A stretch of DNA of 64,000 bases from Streptomyces sp. NBC_00775. Lineage in GTDB: Bacteria; Actinomycetota; Actinomycetes; Streptomycetales; Streptomycetaceae. The DNA lies in contig NZ_CP108938.1 in assembly GCF_036347135.1 (NCBI RefSeq), forward strand, positions 6,758,001 through 6,822,000, written 5' to 3'. The notes below the pieces were generated by a model. The model was not told the origin of the DNA. It was given only the letters and a program-made list of their open reading frames with translations, and did no database searches. The position numbers and the translations under genes were made by a program. Each line of letters opens with the position of its first letter. The first letter of the stretch is position 1. Positions 17,399 to 46,179 of the stretch are shown here, piece by piece.

Positions 17399-17403
17399 GT
17401 CGG

Positions 17404-17477
17404 TGCGCCGCCAGGGACTCGAACCCCGGACCCGCTGATTAAGAGTCAGCTGCTCTAACCAACTGAGCTAGCGGCGC
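17404..17477 (-). tRNA. tRNA-Lys (CTT)
   Basis: The complementary strand folds as a full cloverleaf: acceptor GCGCCGC/GCGGCGC, D-arm GCTC...GAGC, anticodon stem GCTGA/TCAGC with loop CTCTTAA (anticodon CTT), T-arm CGGGG TTCGAGT CCCTG, discriminator A. No encoded CCA. Identical in the gene body to copies at 25896 and 39078. It lies between cslA and the peptidoglycan-binding protein gene. Confidence 0.97.
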
Positions 17478-25890: not shown

Positions 25891-25895
25891 TTCTG

Positions 25896-25969
25896 TGCGC
25901 CGCCAGGGACTCGAACCCCGGACCCGCTGATTAAGAGTCAGCTGCTCTAACCAACTGAGCTAGCGGCGC
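25896..25969 (-). tRNA. tRNA-Lys (CTT)
   Basis: Same 74-base gene as 17404-17477, with anticodon CTT, acceptor GCGCCGC/GCGGCGC, discriminator A and no CCA. It follows its own terminator hairpin and precedes the IclR gene. The 5' flank differs from the other two copies. Confidence 0.97.
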
Positions 25970-39071: not shown

Positions 39072-39077
39072 CTAGCG

Positions 39078-39151
39078 TGCGCCGCCAGGGACTCGAACCC
39101 CGGACCCGCTGATTAAGAGTCAGCTGCTCTAACCAACTGAGCTAGCGGCGC
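39078..39151 (-). tRNA. tRNA-Lys (CTT)
   Basis: Third copy of the same 74-base gene, anticodon CTT, discriminator A. Its 5' end overlaps the last ten bases of the preceding coding sequence on the same strand (39142-39151), so the mRNA and tRNA must be processed from one or from two transcripts. Confidence 0.97.
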
Positions 39152-40569: not shown

Positions 40570-40953
40570 TCAGGCGTGGTCGCTCACCCCATGGCCATGT
40601 CCATGCCCGTTCCCCTCCACCCCCCGAAGCAGATCCCGCCCGAACTCGACCATCTTCTTCGCGTAATCCTCGGTCCATTCGGCCCGCTCGGCGATGGCCG
40701 CCGCAGTGAGCCGGTCAAACCGCCGAGGATCAGCCAGCTGCGCCGCAGCGATCGCCTGAAACTCGACAGCCCGATCCGCCGCGGCCCGAAACGCAAGCGT
40801 CAGCTCCGTCGCCCGATCCAGCAACGCACGCGGATCATCGATCGACTCCAGATCGAAGAAATGCTCCGGATCCCCGGCGGCCTCCGCGGGCTCGAAGAGC
40901 AGGGGCGCGGGGCGTCGCCGCGGTTCGTTCCGACGCGGCGTGGGCTCCGCCAT
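40570..40953 (-). CDS. conserved small protein with His-rich tail
   Basis: 127 residues, ATG 40953 behind GGAGGAG. Basic N-terminus, then an all-helical body (LDRATELTLAFRAAADRAVE, AAIAERAEWTEDYAKKMVEF) and a C-terminal NGHGHGHGVSDHA that could bind nickel, zinc or cobalt. I do not recognise a family, but codon use and the ribosome site support a real gene. It is separated by 151 bases from the end of the helicase operon upstream on the same strand. Confidence 0.65.
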   Translation of the reverse strand: MAEPTPRRNEPRRRPAPLLFEPAEAAGDPEHFFDLESIDDPRALLDRATELTLAFRAAADRAVEFQAIAAAQLADPRRFDRLTAAAIAERAEWTEDYAKKMVEFGRDLLRGVEGNGHGHGHGVSDHA

Positions 40954-41104: not shown

Positions 41105-42439
41105 CTACGGCCGCCAAGCCACCCGATGCTCCCCCAGATGCGACAACACCGCGTGATTGGCCTCCCAACCGTCGGGGAACTTCACGGTGACCCCCAGCTG
41201 CACCGGCTCCGTCGACGGGTGGTCGTCCAGCAGCTCCGTCACCCCCGCCCGGCACACCACGATGCACGCGTGCCGATGCCGGGACGCGAGCACGCACAAG
41301 CGGCCCGTCTCCAAGTGGAACGCCGTCGCGTCGGGCCGCCCCGACAGCGGATGCAGCACCACCGTCACATCGAACTCCCGCCCCTGAAGCCGGTTCGCCG
41401 TGTCGACGGTGACGTCCAGAACGCCGAGCTCCGCCAGCGCGGCCCGTACGGCGGCGGCCTGGTCCCGGTGCGCCGTGCCGACGGCGATCCGGTCGGCCGT
41501 CAGCGGCACCGGATCGTCCGCCCGCTCCGACGTGGCCGCGCCACCCCGGTCCAGCAGTCGGCGTACGACCTGCGCCACGGCCCGTACCGCCTCGGGATCC
41601 GTACGAGGCGTGTGCCGGGCCGGCAGCTCCAGCAGCCCCCAACCCGCCTCCGCCGCCTCGTCGATGACCCGGTCGGGACCCGAACCGTCCGAGACGACCG
41701 CGAAGTTGAGGCGCCGGTCAGCGTGCGCCGTGCCACTGCGGAACGGCGTATACGGGTAGAACGCGTCCGAGACCAGCGGTGCCGCCGACGCGGGCAGCCG
41801 CCAGGACACCGGAAGGCGGTGCTGCGGCAGCTCAGGATTGTGGGCGAGCAGTGTCGTCACCGCGGACGCTGACGGGTCGTAGGACAGCCCCGCCCACTGC
41901 TCGGAGCCCACGGTCGCGAAGGGGTCCAACTGCCCCGGGTCGCCCACGAACAGCGCGCGCTCGAAGAGCCCGGCCACGGCGAGCAGCGCGTCCGACCGCA
42001 TCTGGTACGCCTCGTCGACGATCGCGTGCCGCCACGGCTCGACGCCCTTGACGTGAGCCCACTTGGCGGCGGTCGAGATGACGACGTCGAGGCCTGCCAG
42101 GTCGGCCGCCTTCGTCGACTTGCGGACGTTTGGAAGGCCGTCCAGCGCCTTGTCGTAGGGGTCGCTGTCGCTGCTGTGCAGCCGTCCGACGGGCAGCTCG
42201 GGGTCCTTTTCGGCGAGCCGCACCACCAGGTCGTCGACCTGAGCGTTGGTCTGCGCGATGACCATCAACGGGCGCCCGGCGGCGGCCAGTTCGAGGGCCG
42301 CGCGTACGACCAGAGTCGACTTTCCGGCACCGGGCGGGGAGTCGACGACGACTCCGCGATGCGTGCCGTGGAGGGTGTCGTGCAGGATCGCGTCGGTGGC
42401 GCGGGTCGCGGCGGCACCCGGGTCGAAGACGGTGGTCAT
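41105..42439 (-). CDS. Upf1-like superfamily 1 helicase/ATPase
   Basis: 444 residues from ATG 42439, overlapping the previous stop (ATGA). Motif I is DSPPGAGKST with Lys40. Motif Ia-like is VIAQTNAQVDDLV. Motif II is AIVDEAYQM (Asp142, Glu143) and motif III is VGDPGQLDPF. The C-terminal RecA domain has VGTAHRDQAAAVR, VDTANRLQGREFDV and VLASRHRHACIV (motif VI). This is the SF1B/Upf1-like (DNA2-type) arrangement, lacking the long accessory domains of RecB. It is the last gene of a three-gene operon with a Cas4-like nuclease and a 542-residue protein, and together they could process DNA or RNA ends. Start and coupling are clear. Confidence 0.85.
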   Translation of the reverse strand: MTTVFDPGAAATRATDAILHDTLHGTHRGVVVDSPPGAGKSTLVVRAALELAAAGRPLMVIAQTNAQVDDLVVRLAEKDPELPVGRLHSSDSDPYDKALDGLPNVRKSTKAADLAGLDVVISTAAKWAHVKGVEPWRHAIVDEAYQMRSDALLAVAGLFERALFVGDPGQLDPFATVGSEQWAGLSYDPSASAVTTLLAHNPELPQHRLPVSWRLPASAAPLVSDAFYPYTPFRSGTAHADRRLNFAVVSDGSGPDRVIDEAAEAGWGLLELPARHTPRTDPEAVRAVAQVVRRLLDRGGAATSERADDPVPLTADRIAVGTAHRDQAAAVRAALAELGVLDVTVDTANRLQGREFDVTVVLHPLSGRPDATAFHLETGRLCVLASRHRHACIVVCRAGVTELLDDHPSTEPVQLGVTVKFPDGWEANHAVLSHLGEHRVAWRP

Positions 42440-44064
42440 AGGACGTCCTCCTCCGTCACCGGGTCCGGCAGGGGTACGGCGTCGGGTTCGCCCGGCGGCC
42501 CTCCGTGCGTCCACGGTGTCTCCTCCGGGTCGGGCAGTTTCGCCCCGCCCCGCTGCTCGTGCTCGAAGAGCGTGAAGCAGACGAGGTCGCCCTTCTCCGG
42601 CACGGAACCGCTCTCGGGCTCCTTGCCGCGCCCCATCTTGTCGACGATCCGCAGCACGACAGCGGCGCTCCCGTCAGCGGCGCCCCCGCCCCCGTCCTCG
42701 TAGGCCCCCTCGTACCCCACGAACTCCGCGGCCTGCGGCTTTCCTCCCAACGACCGGTACACCTTGGCCCGTTCCCCCAGATGCGGGCGGTCCTCCGTGC
42801 GGACGGTCACCAGGGGGCGCGGGCTGGGGCGCTTGCCTTCGCTGTACGCCATCACGACATCCGTGACCTCGCCCGCGAACGCCTCCCCGGCGAGCCGTCG
42901 CCCGGCCATGACGAGCGGGTCGTCCAGGGCCTCCTGGGCTTCCAGGCGGGCCTGTTCGCGCTCGCGCGTGGCGAGCTTGTTGGCCGCGGTGACCGCGTCG
43001 TCGCGGCGCGGCTGCGGGGGCTCGCCCGCGGTGATCCGGTCGCGGTGGCCGGTGAACGACCAGCGGTCGCGGGTCCAGCGGTCGGTGGCGTGCGCGCCCT
43101 CGGGGAGCGTGCGCAGCAGGTCGAGTCCGCGCCACACCGCGTCCCAGGTGGGCCGGGTGACGCTCGCGACGAGGGCGTGGATCTCCCGCTCGGCGGCGGT
43201 GAGCGCGCCGAGCCGGTCGTCCGCCTCGATGCCGTCCTCGGCGGCGGCGAGCGCCGTACGCGCGCGGTCGTAGCGCTCGATGGCGGGGGCCAGCAGCGTG
43301 TTGTCGAAGGCGGGGTCGGTGGCGGGTCCGGCCGGCGGGCAGACGAGCTGGCCGCGGGAGTCCCGACGCAGCTCGGCGTGGAGCGCGGCCGCCGCACCCG
43401 ACTCGCCGTCCGGTGGGTCGATCCAGGCGAGCAGCGCGCCGAGGTGCTGGTCCTCCAGGCTGCTCTGTCCGGTGGCCCAGTGCCGGGACAGTACGTCGGT
43501 GAGGGCGAGGAGGAGGGCGGAGCCGGGCACCCGGGACCGCTCTCCGTAGTGCGTCAGCCAGCGCCCGAGCAGCGGCACGCGGGGCGGCGCCGGATGGGGC
43601 GCCTCGGGATCTTGCTCGGCGGTGCGCCTGAAACGCATGGAGCGCCCGAGCAGCCGTACGAACTCGATGCCCGACCGGCTCGGCACGATCAACTGGGGCG
43701 CGTCCGCGCACAGTTCGACCTCGACCTTGACCCGCTTGCCGGTCTCCGGATCGGTCTCGTTGCGCTCGGCCGCCTCGACCACGTCCGCGAACGAGTCGAT
43801 GTACGGCAGGACGACATCCGCCAGCTCGGTGAGGAACGCGAACCGCAGATCCCGGTCCCGGGGCTGCGGCACGACGAGCAGCCGGGGCGCGTCCCGGTCC
43901 GTGCCGACGAGTGCCCCGAGGGGGGCTCCCGCCTCACCGGCGGTGATCAGCGGCACGAACACCAGTGGCCGCTCGGTGAGATGCCGGTGCCGCACGGTGG
44001 CGGCGGCCTGAGCCCGTCCGCTCTCGACGGCTTCCAGACGGGCGAGGGTGGCGATCAGCGACAT
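42436..44064 (-). CDS. 542-residue protein of unknown function in nuclease-helicase operon
   Basis: 542 residues from ATG 44064, overlapping the nuclease gene by ten bases and the helicase gene by four. The N-terminal 120 residues are mixed alpha/beta (PLVFVPLITAGEAGAPLGAL). The middle (about 150-400) is helical, with many Arg/Trp motifs (WDAVWRGLDLLR, RWTRDRWSFTGHRDRI). The C-terminal ~110 residues are beta-rich (VLRIVDKMGRGKEP, KGDLVCFTLFEHEQ) and could be the beta-barrel part of an SF1B helicase encoded separately. No motif for nuclease or ATPase seen. Probably an essential subunit of the three-gene machine (inference). Confidence 0.75.
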   Translation of the reverse strand: MSLIATLARLEAVESGRAQAAATVRHRHLTERPLVFVPLITAGEAGAPLGALVGTDRDAPRLLVVPQPRDRDLRFAFLTELADVVLPYIDSFADVVEAAERNETDPETGKRVKVEVELCADAPQLIVPSRSGIEFVRLLGRSMRFRRTAEQDPEAPHPAPPRVPLLGRWLTHYGERSRVPGSALLLALTDVLSRHWATGQSSLEDQHLGALLAWIDPPDGESGAAAALHAELRRDSRGQLVCPPAGPATDPAFDNTLLAPAIERYDRARTALAAAEDGIEADDRLGALTAAEREIHALVASVTRPTWDAVWRGLDLLRTLPEGAHATDRWTRDRWSFTGHRDRITAGEPPQPRRDDAVTAANKLATREREQARLEAQEALDDPLVMAGRRLAGEAFAGEVTDVVMAYSEGKRPSPRPLVTVRTEDRPHLGERAKVYRSLGGKPQAAEFVGYEGAYEDGGGGAADGSAAVVLRIVDKMGRGKEPESGSVPEKGDLVCFTLFEHEQRGGAKLPDPEETPWTHGGPPGEPDAVPLPDPVTEEDVL

Positions 44065-45281
44065 ACGGCCGCCCCCTCCCGGTCGAGGGGGAGCGCCAAC
44101 GCCTCGGCCTTCGCGGCCTGGGTTCCCAACGCCTCGGCCCGCAGGTGCGCCGCTCTCCGCAGCGCCGCGACCGCGGGGTCGTCCGGATCTCCCGTCTCAC
44201 CGTGGGCCGCCGCCAGGACGTCGCCCACCGTCGTCAGCCCGCCCAGTTCCGCGCGCAGTGAGCGGCCCAGGGACGTCACCGCGCCCTGCGCGCGCGAGTG
44301 GTCGCGGCAGTGGAAGGCCAGTTCGCAGGCGGACAGGCACTCGGGGGCGTAGGTCGCGGGGACGGATTCGACGGCCGTGGTCAGATCGGCGGCGGGGAGG
44401 TCGGTGGAGAAGCAGGTGCCCTCGGGGAGGGTGGCCGCGATGTCCTCGACGCGGGTGAGACGGGCGAGCTGGCGGCGGGTGACCGCGCGCTGCTTGCGGA
44501 CGTCGACGGCGGACGCGGTCGGAAGGTTGGAGAAGTCCTTGGGGCAGACCAGGAGGACCCGGTGGCGGACCTCGGGGACGGGGTCCAGATGGGCGGCGAC
44601 CTGCTCCAGCGCCAGGACGTACACCGCGGACTGGCGCGCGGCCGCGCCCACCTTCGCCGGGTCCGCCGAACCGTCGAGCATCGGGAAGGACTTGATCTCG
44701 ACGACCGTCCAGCCGCCGTCGGGGTGCACGACCACGGCGTCCGGCTCCAGGAAGGCGGGGGAACCCGCGACGTCGAGAGCCAGCATCGGGTGGTCGAGCA
44801 GGGTCCAGGTGGCGGCCGCGGTGGCCTCGCGCAGGGCGAGGGCCGTACGCGCCGCGCGTCCCTCGGGGCCGACGGCGCTCAGGTCGGGGACGACACCCGC
44901 GGCGGGCGGTTCGGCGCCGGGGTCCAGCTTTTCGTGCACGAGCCGCAGCAGCTCCGCGCCGCCGTCCGCCTTGACCCGCGCCTCGAACGCGTTGCCCCGC
45001 ATGAAGGCGAACTGCGACATACCGAAGCCGGACGGCGAACCGAGCGCACCGGCCAGCTTCGCCTTGTCGACCCCCGCGCCGTCGAGGAGGGCGCGGCGGT
45101 CGCAGCCGGGGTTGGCGGCGAGCGCCGCGAGGGCGCGCGCGTCGAGGGCCTTGGGCGGTACAGCCGGACCGCGCAGGTCAGCGAGCCGCTGCCGGAGCGC
45201 CGTCCCCCGCGTCCGAGGGAGAGGCACCCGGCTCGGCTCCCGGCCCGGTTCGGGACTCGCGCTGTCGGGGAATTCGCTCAC
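44055..45281 (-). CDS. Cas4/AddB-like PD-(D/E)xK nuclease with Fe-S cysteine pattern
   Basis: 408 residues from GTG 45281; GTG 45227 is possible and would remove half of the overlap with the PAP2 gene. Nuclease core: Asp181 (FLEPDAVVV), Glu195-x-Lys197 (WTVVEIKSF) and the QxxxY motif Gln217-Tyr221 (RQSAVY), as in RecB, AddB and Cas4. Cysteines at 60, 290, 315, 319 and 325 give an N-terminal Cys plus a C-x3-C-x5-C cluster, the pattern of Fe-S-clasped nucleases. First gene of a three-gene coupled operon ending with an SF1 helicase. It should cut single-stranded DNA ends. Not fused to a helicase, unlike AdnAB. Confidence 0.78.
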   Translation of the reverse strand: MSEFPDSASPEPGREPSRVPLPRTRGTALRQRLADLRGPAVPPKALDARALAALAANPGCDRRALLDGAGVDKAKLAGALGSPSGFGMSQFAFMRGNAFEARVKADGGAELLRLVHEKLDPGAEPPAAGVVPDLSAVGPEGRAARTALALREATAAATWTLLDHPMLALDVAGSPAFLEPDAVVVHPDGGWTVVEIKSFPMLDGSADPAKVGAAARQSAVYVLALEQVAAHLDPVPEVRHRVLLVCPKDFSNLPTASAVDVRKQRAVTRRQLARLTRVEDIAATLPEGTCFSTDLPAADLTTAVESVPATYAPECLSACELAFHCRDHSRAQGAVTSLGRSLRAELGGLTTVGDVLAAAHGETGDPDDPAVAALRRAAHLRAEALGTQAAKAEALALPLDREGAAVCR

Positions 45282-46179
45282 CCGTGGAAGTCTGGCACCC
45301 CGCACTGACAATTGAGGAACCCGCGCCCCGCGAGGCACCCACGACCCGCGGGAAACGGGCGCCCAGCCGTGTCTTCAGCCGGTCCGCCAGCCGCATCACC
45401 AACGGCGTCAGCAGCAGCCCGATCCCCATCACCGACGCACCCGCGACGGCGTCGAGGAAGTAGTGGTTCGCCGTGCCCATCACGACGATCGTGGTGAGCA
45501 GCGGATACGCGACACCCGCGACCTTGGCGGCAGGCGTGCGGCCGTACCGCCACAGCATCACTCCGCACCACAGCGCCCAGCCCACATGCAGGCTCGGCAT
45601 CGCCGCGTACTGGTTGGTCATTCCGCCCATACCCCGCGGCGCGCTCGCCTCGCCGCCCCACCAGCCGTACGAGCTGTACTGGGCCATCGTGTCGACGAAG
45701 CCGTGGCCGGGGGAGAGCAGCCGGGGCGGGCAGGTCGGCAGCAGGGTGAAGCCGATCAGGCCGATGAACGTGGAGGTCATCAGCCAGGTGCGGGCCGCGC
45801 GGTAGCGCACGGTCCGGGAGCGGAAGAGCCAGATCAGGATCGCGGGCGTCACCAAGTAGTGCAGCGACGCGTACCAGAAGTCGGCGGGCACACCCAGCCA
45901 GGCCTCACGGGTGAACAGCCGGTTCAGCGGGTGTTCGGCGTTGAGGTGGAGCGCCTTCTCGACGCGCAGGATCTCCAGGCCGTGGTGGACGGCGCTCGAG
46001 GTGTCGCCCCGGGCGAGCAGCCGGCCCGCCGAGTACGACGCGTACACCATCACGATCAGCGGCAGCTCGGTCCACCAGCGGAGCCGGGCGTGCGGTGCCC
46101 CGGCGTTGCGCAGGTCGGTCCACCGGCGAAACCGGGCGCGTGGTGCCGCCTCGGTACGCAGTGCATCGGTCTGCGGCAT
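45178..46179 (-). CDS. PAP2-family membrane phosphatase (inositol phosphorylceramide synthase-like)
   Basis: 333 residues from ATG 46179, behind GGAGGG; ATG 46197 is in frame. Five to six helices. Phosphatase motifs are PSLHVGWALWCG (PSxH) and TANHYFLDAVAGA (H-x3-D), and the first lysine/arginine motif is weak, as in the AUR1-like subgroup. It acts on lipid phosphates or transfers phospho-headgroups at the outer membrane face. The last ~50 residues are a low-complexity tail that overlaps the nuclease gene by 104 bases, an unusual overlap length. Confidence 0.82.
   Translation of the reverse strand: MPQTDALRTEAAPRARFRRWTDLRNAGAPHARLRWWTELPLIVMVYASYSAGRLLARGDTSSAVHHGLEILRVEKALHLNAEHPLNRLFTREAWLGVPADFWYASLHYLVTPAILIWLFRSRTVRYRAARTWLMTSTFIGLIGFTLLPTCPPRLLSPGHGFVDTMAQYSSYGWWGGEASAPRGMGGMTNQYAAMPSLHVGWALWCGVMLWRYGRTPAAKVAGVAYPLLTTIVVMGTANHYFLDAVAGASVMGIGLLLTPLVMRLADRLKTRLGARFPRVVGASRGAGSSIVSAGCQTSTGERIPRQRESRTGPGAEPGASPSDAGDGAPAAAR

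Follow-up and report, generated by a model that had tools for sequence, protein, structure and literature searches.

A conserved three-gene Streptomyces operon predicted to encode a DNA2-like helicase-nuclease as separate polypeptides

The stretch of DNA analyzed here, hereafter the window, comprises 64,000 nucleotides (nt) of Streptomyces sp. NBC_00775 (C1:6758001-6822000 of its 11.1-Mb single-contig genome, labeled G000). It holds an operon of three overlapping genes, called Nuc (nuclease), Mid (middle), and Hel (helicase); G numbers denote genomes and L numbers denote loci. A preliminary description of this DNA had reported overlaps of 10 and 4 bases, and the open reading frames (ORFs), with start and stop codons checked, confirm 10 nt for Nuc/Mid and 4 nt for Mid/Hel. 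The operon is so far unannotated and is nearly universal in the Streptomyces genomes examined. Its features, in window coordinates, are as follows.

45289..45311, minus strand: RecA-NDp/PafBC-type promoter, TTGTCAGTG-N8-CAGACT, the end of its -10 element being 7 nt from the Nuc GTG
44055..45281, minus strand: Nuc, 408 amino acids, GTG start, predicted 4Fe-4S PD-(D/E)xK nuclease
45102..45104, minus strand: Nuc Cys60, predicted first Fe-S ligand, invariant in 22/22 sequences
44307..44339, minus strand: Nuc Cys315-x3-Cys319-x5-Cys325, predicted remaining Fe-S ligands, invariant in 22/22 sequences
42436..44064, minus strand: Mid, 542 amino acids, putative scaffold/barrel subunit of no sequence family
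42904..43974, minus strand: Mid residues 31-387, predicted RNase H-like part (family B polymerase 3'-5' exonuclease-like) and long helices
42553..42903, minus strand: Mid residues 388-504, predicted barrel similar to Senataxin/Sen1 domain 1B, which Hel lacks
41105..42439, minus strand: Hel, 444 amino acids, two-RecA core of an Upf1/DNA2-like superfamily 1B (SF1B) helicase
42317..42340, minus strand: Hel Walker A (PPGAGKST), from an alignment of 19 sequences

The operon is not a chance arrangement, because Nuc and Mid have thousands of homologues (3382 and 3673, respectively, at E 1e-3, with 7996 candidates scored for each) and the linkage of the genes is conserved. The best named homologue of Nuc, from Streptomyces lutosisoli, is 97% identical. 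Across the phylum (198 genomes), Nuc is found in 11 genomes, Mid in 10, and Hel in 26, the last figure including distant helicases. Across the class, Mid occurs in 70 of 394 genomes and in 15 of 137 genera. Of the 40 listed genomes of the same genus, 39 have it, G000 included; the 304 misses of the class survey are unlisted and apparently sort below the same-genus genomes. The core copy was followed in the best 80 of 561 relatives, which are named Streptomyces records and hence the nearest ones (14 of these 80 core loci span less than 20 kb). A PAP2 gene flanks the operon in 80/80 core loci, a phosphoglycerate-mutase-like gene in 78/80, and an M6-type protease gene in 67/80. A tree of 53 Hel sequences groups its nine core copies in one clade with a support of 1.0.

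The preliminary description had asked whether the three genes co-occur as a unit across actinobacteria or have homologues only as unlinked single genes. They are linked across genera, and the order Nuc-Mid-Hel is kept even at 25-36% identity in G165, whose middle ORF clusters with Mid by BLAST. Mid and Hel are naturally fused into a protein of 933 residues in genome G800 (L196:5929-8730, minus strand). This fusion is one case among the 124 non-redundant loci that hold both genes (129 non-redundant loci in all); the search covered 168 loci, with many overlapping copies among them, and revealed no Nuc-Mid fusion. Exceptions to linkage are G415, which is without Mid or Hel, and genus g201 (G377:C4 and G278:C1), in which Nuc and Mid are adjacent and Hel lies 36-50 kb away. 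The latter genus offers a natural test of continued cooperation between the subunits.

Nuc is predicted from its conserved residues to be an Fe-S nuclease of the RecB/Cas4/AddB type. The catalytic residues first read from a single sequence (D181, E195-x-K197, and Q217xxxY221) are all present and conserved across an alignment of 22 diverse Nuc proteins. D181 and Y221 are invariant, as are C60, C315, C319, and C325, in an alignment that includes a relative at 25% identity, and E195, K197, and Q217 are each conserved at 90% or above. Catalytic and Cys residues are intact in 80/80 core loci, and the C315-C319-C325 group is also kept in 18/18 SbcD-linked and 10/10 pPIWI-linked loci (see below). Of the five cysteines originally placed in the Fe-S pattern, residues 60, 315, 319, and 325 stand; C290 is Cys in 80/80 core loci but Thr or Ser in 28/28 accessory loci and is therefore not a ligand candidate.

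Searches of Pfam, PADLOC, NCBIfam (up to E 1), PHROGs, and PDB sequences gave no useful match for Nuc. Among the PDB sequence searches with Nuc and Mid, one hit two designed proteins across 31 residues, and another gave no E value below 0.19. The core of the Nuc AlphaFold2 model resembles human EXO5, Cas4, and the nuclease domains of AdnAB, AddAB, and RecBCD. A prediction lacking a PD-(D/E)xK fold in 44055-45281 was to have counted against the preliminary description; this was not the outcome, although the test is weak since the Nuc model is poor.

Mid had been described as a protein without a known motif, and it indeed has no family match in Pfam, PADLOC, NCBIfam (up to E 1), or PHROGs, no PDB profile match, and no Foldseek match at E 1e-3. 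Its AlphaFold2 model scores well (predicted local distance difference test 87.6, predicted template modeling score 0.86) and is predicted to comprise the RNase H-like part, a stalk, and the barrel. The RNase H-like part is probably an inactive nuclease fold, because the modeled strand at residues 34-40 has no acidic residue and motif-I acids are thus lacking. The beta-rich end of Mid had been suspected of being a missing helicase barrel; the modeled barrel resembles that of Senataxin/Sen1, which Hel lacks, and is consistent with this suggestion.

The complete set of superfamily 1 motifs claimed for Hel is borne out by the 19-sequence alignment, which shows PPGAGK, DEA(Y/W)Q, GDPGQ, a QG(R/V)E-type motif V, and SRH. 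Hel matches Pfam AAA_11/AAA_12. When solved structures are searched with a 19-homologue profile, DNA2 is the best hit (E 7.7e-15), followed by SMUBP-2 (3.2e-12) and UPF1 (2.8e-8). Hel is without the N-terminal stalk and barrel, because its matches start only at SMUBP-2 residue 198-208. PADLOC detects partial helicase similarity only (best model MkoC, E 8e-9), and Nuc and Mid match none of its component models.

The promoter was sought with the pattern TTGTCRGTG-N8-YANNNT, which is taken here as the RecA-NDp consensus and is printed in no cited passage. This pattern has no second match on either strand of the window. Within -150 to +60 of the Nuc match it occurs in 75/80 core loci, the other five being one base off by eye. 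The 1.58 Mb of core loci contain no further match on either strand, and the reversed pattern has no match there. The exact spacing between promoter and GTG is identical in the window and in the 10 loci measured. In this strain, the promoter region partly coincides with the 3' end of the PAP2 ORF, and across 10 loci the neighboring bases vary more than the motif. The recA and uvrB genes of G000 have the same 7-nt motif spacing as Nuc; the GTG start at 45281 is supported because the -10 element ends 7 nt upstream, as for recA and uvrB. The nuc-mid-hel mRNA is probably leaderless, as judged from this arrangement.

Genome-wide, G000 contains 70 matches to the pattern versus 1 for the reversed control. 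Downstream stretches were examined for 36 of the 70, picked mainly for a TA-type -10 element, and 10 interpretable-looking ORFs were family-scanned. The motif precedes genes for RecA, UvrB, RuvC, uracil-DNA glycosylase (ung), an MgsA/RarA-type ATPase, O6-methylguanine methyltransferase, ThyX, a DEAD-box helicase, a SUKH-4 immunity protein, and a DinG-type helicase (identity read from DEAD plus Helicase_C_2). Many of the other 26 motif-preceded ORFs are not repair-like by eye. LexA-type boxes are found neither in the 1 kb upstream of Nuc nor in any of the 70/70 core loci scanned.

Passages of earlier work describe the RecA-NDp promoter for recA and the UV-inducible SCO6735 of Streptomyces coelicolor (PMC5087735) and tie it to PafBC in mycobacteria (PMC8223512). 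A remark in one source (PMC9380542) is that the Mycobacterium smegmatis PafBC motif is not conserved in Streptomyces venezuelae. The genome studied here argues otherwise and, at the level of sequence, suggests that a RecA-NDp/PafBC-type regulon is present in Streptomyces. By its conserved motif, the core operon would belong to this regulon, a membership judged probable as part of the joint reading given below.

Copies outside the Streptomyces core clade have different surroundings. In 19 of 26 such loci, an extra upstream gene encodes pHyp281, a protein of ∼250-290 amino acids with no family and with a conserved stretch SLRRDEERS...ARPYY (L137:16002-16847 and relatives). It occurs in 0/80 core loci, where the RecA-NDp promoter stands instead; the 7/26 non-core loci without pHyp281 are also without the RecA-NDp motif. 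No match to pHyp281 is found in G000, and 25 of 295 Streptomyces genomes have one, two of them weakly (G660 and G823). With these two left out, and with G622 and G696 each counted for one copy, 23 accessory loci remain, of which 12 adjoin SbcD, 10 adjoin pPIWI-RE, and 1 adjoins neither.

SbcD is divergently adjacent in those 12 loci, and SbcC (annotated "SMC family ATPase" in L137) is also present in 11; L192 shows only part of SbcD. The SbcD link is not clonal, because the SbcD-linked helicases come from three genera and from deep branches, with identities down to 45%. The SbcD-linked set fetched comprises 18 loci, including two plasmids (SbcCD is fragmentary in L138) and two other genera, and 12 of the 18 contain Wadjet genes: type I in L137, L138, L171, and L191, type II in L162, L183, L187, L190, L192, and L193, and JetA3 in L194 and L195. 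Wadjet genes are lacking in L172, L189, and L196-L199. The last four carry a TnsB/Mu-type (Mu/Tn7-type) transposase gene instead, with a TniB-like gene near SbcC in L197 and L198, which suggests island mobilization. Accessory units also lie near contig ends: twice each in G622:C1 and G696:C1, 24 kb from both ends, and within 5 kb of the end at G662:C1:4730. The double end copies in G622 and G696 would be terminal inverted repeats. Part of one report describes Wadjet as enriched at Streptomyces chromosome ends (PMC10482375).

The strict promoter pattern is present in 5/29 accessory loci. In these five it stands before Wadjet jetA (L137:11887, minus strand; L171:6225, minus strand; L191:15506, plus strand), before a type III Res gene (L170:12149, plus strand), and before a Snf2-type gene (L203:5689, minus strand). 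Wadjet may be damage-inducible in L137, L171, and L191.

In the ten pPIWI-linked loci, all four pPIWI-RE proteins are encoded beyond pHyp281, and the PIWI gene lies ∼9 kb away. The assignment rests on PADLOC and Pfam in one representative locus and on BLAST and PF13032 in the others. If genes were distributed uniformly, ∼0.02 of 23 loci would lie within 10 kb of pPIWI-RE by chance, a figure that is too low since defense genes cluster. The ten helicases form one clade with 81-98% identity, and this linkage may be a single event.

The partner correlates with nuclease integrity. Nuc residues D181, E195, K197, Q217, and Y221 are intact in 18/18 SbcD-linked loci, and Nuc is broken in 10/10 pPIWI-linked loci (L169, L170, and L200-L207), seven with E195L+K197R and three with D181Q+K197R+Y221S. 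All four Fe-S cysteines are nevertheless kept in these ten. One chromosomal copy outside the core, SbcD, and pPIWI groups (L181) is also without E195. The pPIWI-RE system has its own PD-(D/E)xK protein (PprPDDEXK), and in the copies linked to it nuclease function may have been handed over while scaffold and motor were retained. The accessory copies read as components of immune islands.

Taken together, these observations make it probable that the operon encodes a DNA2-like helicase-nuclease as three polypeptides, that the core copy belongs to a LexA-independent RecA-NDp/PafBC-type damage regulon, and that it acts in repair. DNA damage would induce a leaderless nuc-mid-hel message from the conserved motif. 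The predicted stalk and barrel of Mid would then complete the SF1B motor of Hel, and Nuc would dock on the inactive RNase H-like part of Mid as its platform. By analogy with DNA2 and the DNA2-like Bad protein, in the part of PMC7430649 drawn on here, the complex may thread single-stranded DNA ends or flaps, move 5' to 3', and cut for repair. The accessory copies would be the same engine lent to immune islands, with SbcCD providing a likeness to MRN plus DNA2.

Under the strongest alternative, the operon serves primarily in anti-phage or anti-plasmid defense in the core genome too, as a damage-inducible nuclease-helicase that degrades invading DNA. In its favor, SbcD or pPIWI-RE is adjacent in 22 of the 23 accessory loci sampled; Wadjet, type III restriction-modification, HmaA, and PD-Lambda-1 genes lie near accessory copies; and the deepest relative, in G165, adjoins a type III restriction-modification pair and, by eye, integrase-like genes. 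The core copy, however, occurs almost throughout the genus sample, keeps its synteny, and is monophyletic, and its promoter is common to recA and uvrB. None of 22 queries (SbcC/D, Jet types I-III, pPIWI-RE, type III Res/Mod, SF2-HA helicase, HmaA, and pHyp281) matched in 80/80 core loci, and apart from pHyp281, found in 10/16, the same queries are absent from 16/16 chromosomal loci of other genera. Hel is unmatched in phage records, as are Mid and one accessory Nuc in viral contigs. Defense is unlikely, and suits the window's copy less well than repair does, because this copy is core, has no island queries in 80/80 flanks, and has a DNA-damage-type promoter. It is most likely damage-inducible repair machinery and not primarily a defense system. 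The early proposal of a candidate DNA-processing or defense system thus keeps its defense half for the accessory copies, beside SbcCD/Wadjet or pPIWI-RE, and loses it for the core copy.

It is very unlikely that the three proteins share a promoter and form no single machine, with Mid an unrelated scaffold and its barrel match fortuitous, given the overlaps of 4 and 10 nt, the natural Mid-Hel fusion, and a gene order conserved even at 25-36% identity. About as unlikely is an RNA-processing stress machine, in which Hel would work on RNA in the manner of Upf1/Senataxin, together with an RNase H-like partner. The Upf1-family helicase core and the Senataxin/Sen1-like barrel would fit, but DNA2 outscores UPF1 and Senataxin, Nuc resembles DNA nucleases (EXO5, Cas4, and AddAB), and the promoter and SbcCD contexts are those of DNA repair. 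Least probable of all is telomere maintenance of linear Streptomyces chromosomes or plasmids: some accessory copies are close to the ends of contigs or are carried by a linear plasmid, but the Nuc-Mid-Hel unit also occurs in a replicon annotated as circular (Nonomuraea gerenzanensis) and the core copy is located at 6.8 of 11.1 Mb.

With the DNA2-like repair machine as the preferred reading, a wider scheme is offered more tentatively. The three-part DNA2-type engine could be a core repair machine under the damage regulon that immune islands have borrowed, with an active nuclease beside SbcCD/Wadjet (cf. MRN plus DNA2) and as a nuclease-dead Fe-S helicase platform beside pPIWI-RE, whose PD-(D/E)xK subunit would cut. 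The series from core to SbcCD/Wadjet to pPIWI-RE would give a rare handle on how repair engines turn into immune components. For Streptomyces itself, an unannotated operon joins the candidate genes of the DNA-damage response, and deletion can directly test whether end processing has a second pathway next to AdnAB.

Two neighboring features of the window complete the description. The first lies 3' of Hel.

40570..40953, minus strand: Gene4, 127 amino acids, present in 72/80 core loci

Gene4 is absent from every accessory locus tested and has only a weak PADLOC match, to HEC-01B; it is possibly a fourth member of the Streptomyces core unit. Separately, the window has three tRNA-Lys(CTT) genes (17402-17477, 25895-25969, and 39077-39151) on the same strand within 22 kb, with their 75 shared bases identical.

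No paper on the Nuc-Mid-Hel trio was found in the open, Creative Commons-licensed part of PubMed Central, a scope that makes this weak evidence. The label "PLuB," from an NCBIfam match, was considered, and the name led to no relevant paper among the matches listed. Several known systems are nonetheless comparable. The TM0106-type RecB-like nuclease-helicase (TIGR03491) has a helicase homologous to Hel (hhalign probability 99.5%), and Hel hits in G031, G038, and G040 fall within TIGR03491 ORFs. It differs in being a fused protein, hhalign shows no profile similarity to Nuc or Mid, and TIGR03491 has no match in G000. AddAB and AdnAB also combine a RecB-family nuclease with a superfamily 1 helicase for DNA ends, and the Nuc core resembles AddAB and AdnAB chains. 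Their subunits are fused SF1A UvrD-type proteins, whereas the trio has an SF1B helicase and separate genes. Wadjet and pPIWI-RE are frequent neighbors of accessory copies, but the trio matches no component model of either in PADLOC, and the cited portion of the pPIWI-RE paper (PMC3702460) does not mention it. SbcCD, another accessory neighbor, is the bacterial Mre11-Rad50.

The closest likenesses are to Bad, a DNA2-like protein of Geobacillus, and to DNA2 itself. Passages on Bad (PMC7430649) describe a four-Cys Fe-S nuclease with an SF1B helicase, a further central domain that DNA2 does not have, and a type III-like methyltransferase neighbor. Bad differs from the trio as a single fused protein with a rare and sporadic distribution; a second class in Mycobacteria is mentioned in those passages and a split form is not. 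When the trio is compared with the DNA2/Bad group, the RecB-family motifs, four Fe-S cysteines, and SF1B Upf1-like core are all present, and the single fused nuclease-helicase polypeptide is replaced by three genes, with one Mid-Hel fusion only. In the sections of PMC4716839 that describe it, DNA2 has an Fe-S RecB-type nuclease and an SF1B 1A/2A core, with a barrel on a two-helix stalk between nuclease and helicase, and the order Nuc-Mid-Hel is collinear with this arrangement. In the same sections DNA2 is one polypeptide with an OB domain, whereas the trio is spread over three polypeptides and has an RNase H-like part in addition. The operon would thus represent a DNA2-type enzyme divided between domains, so that the barrel of the motor is carried on a separate protein.

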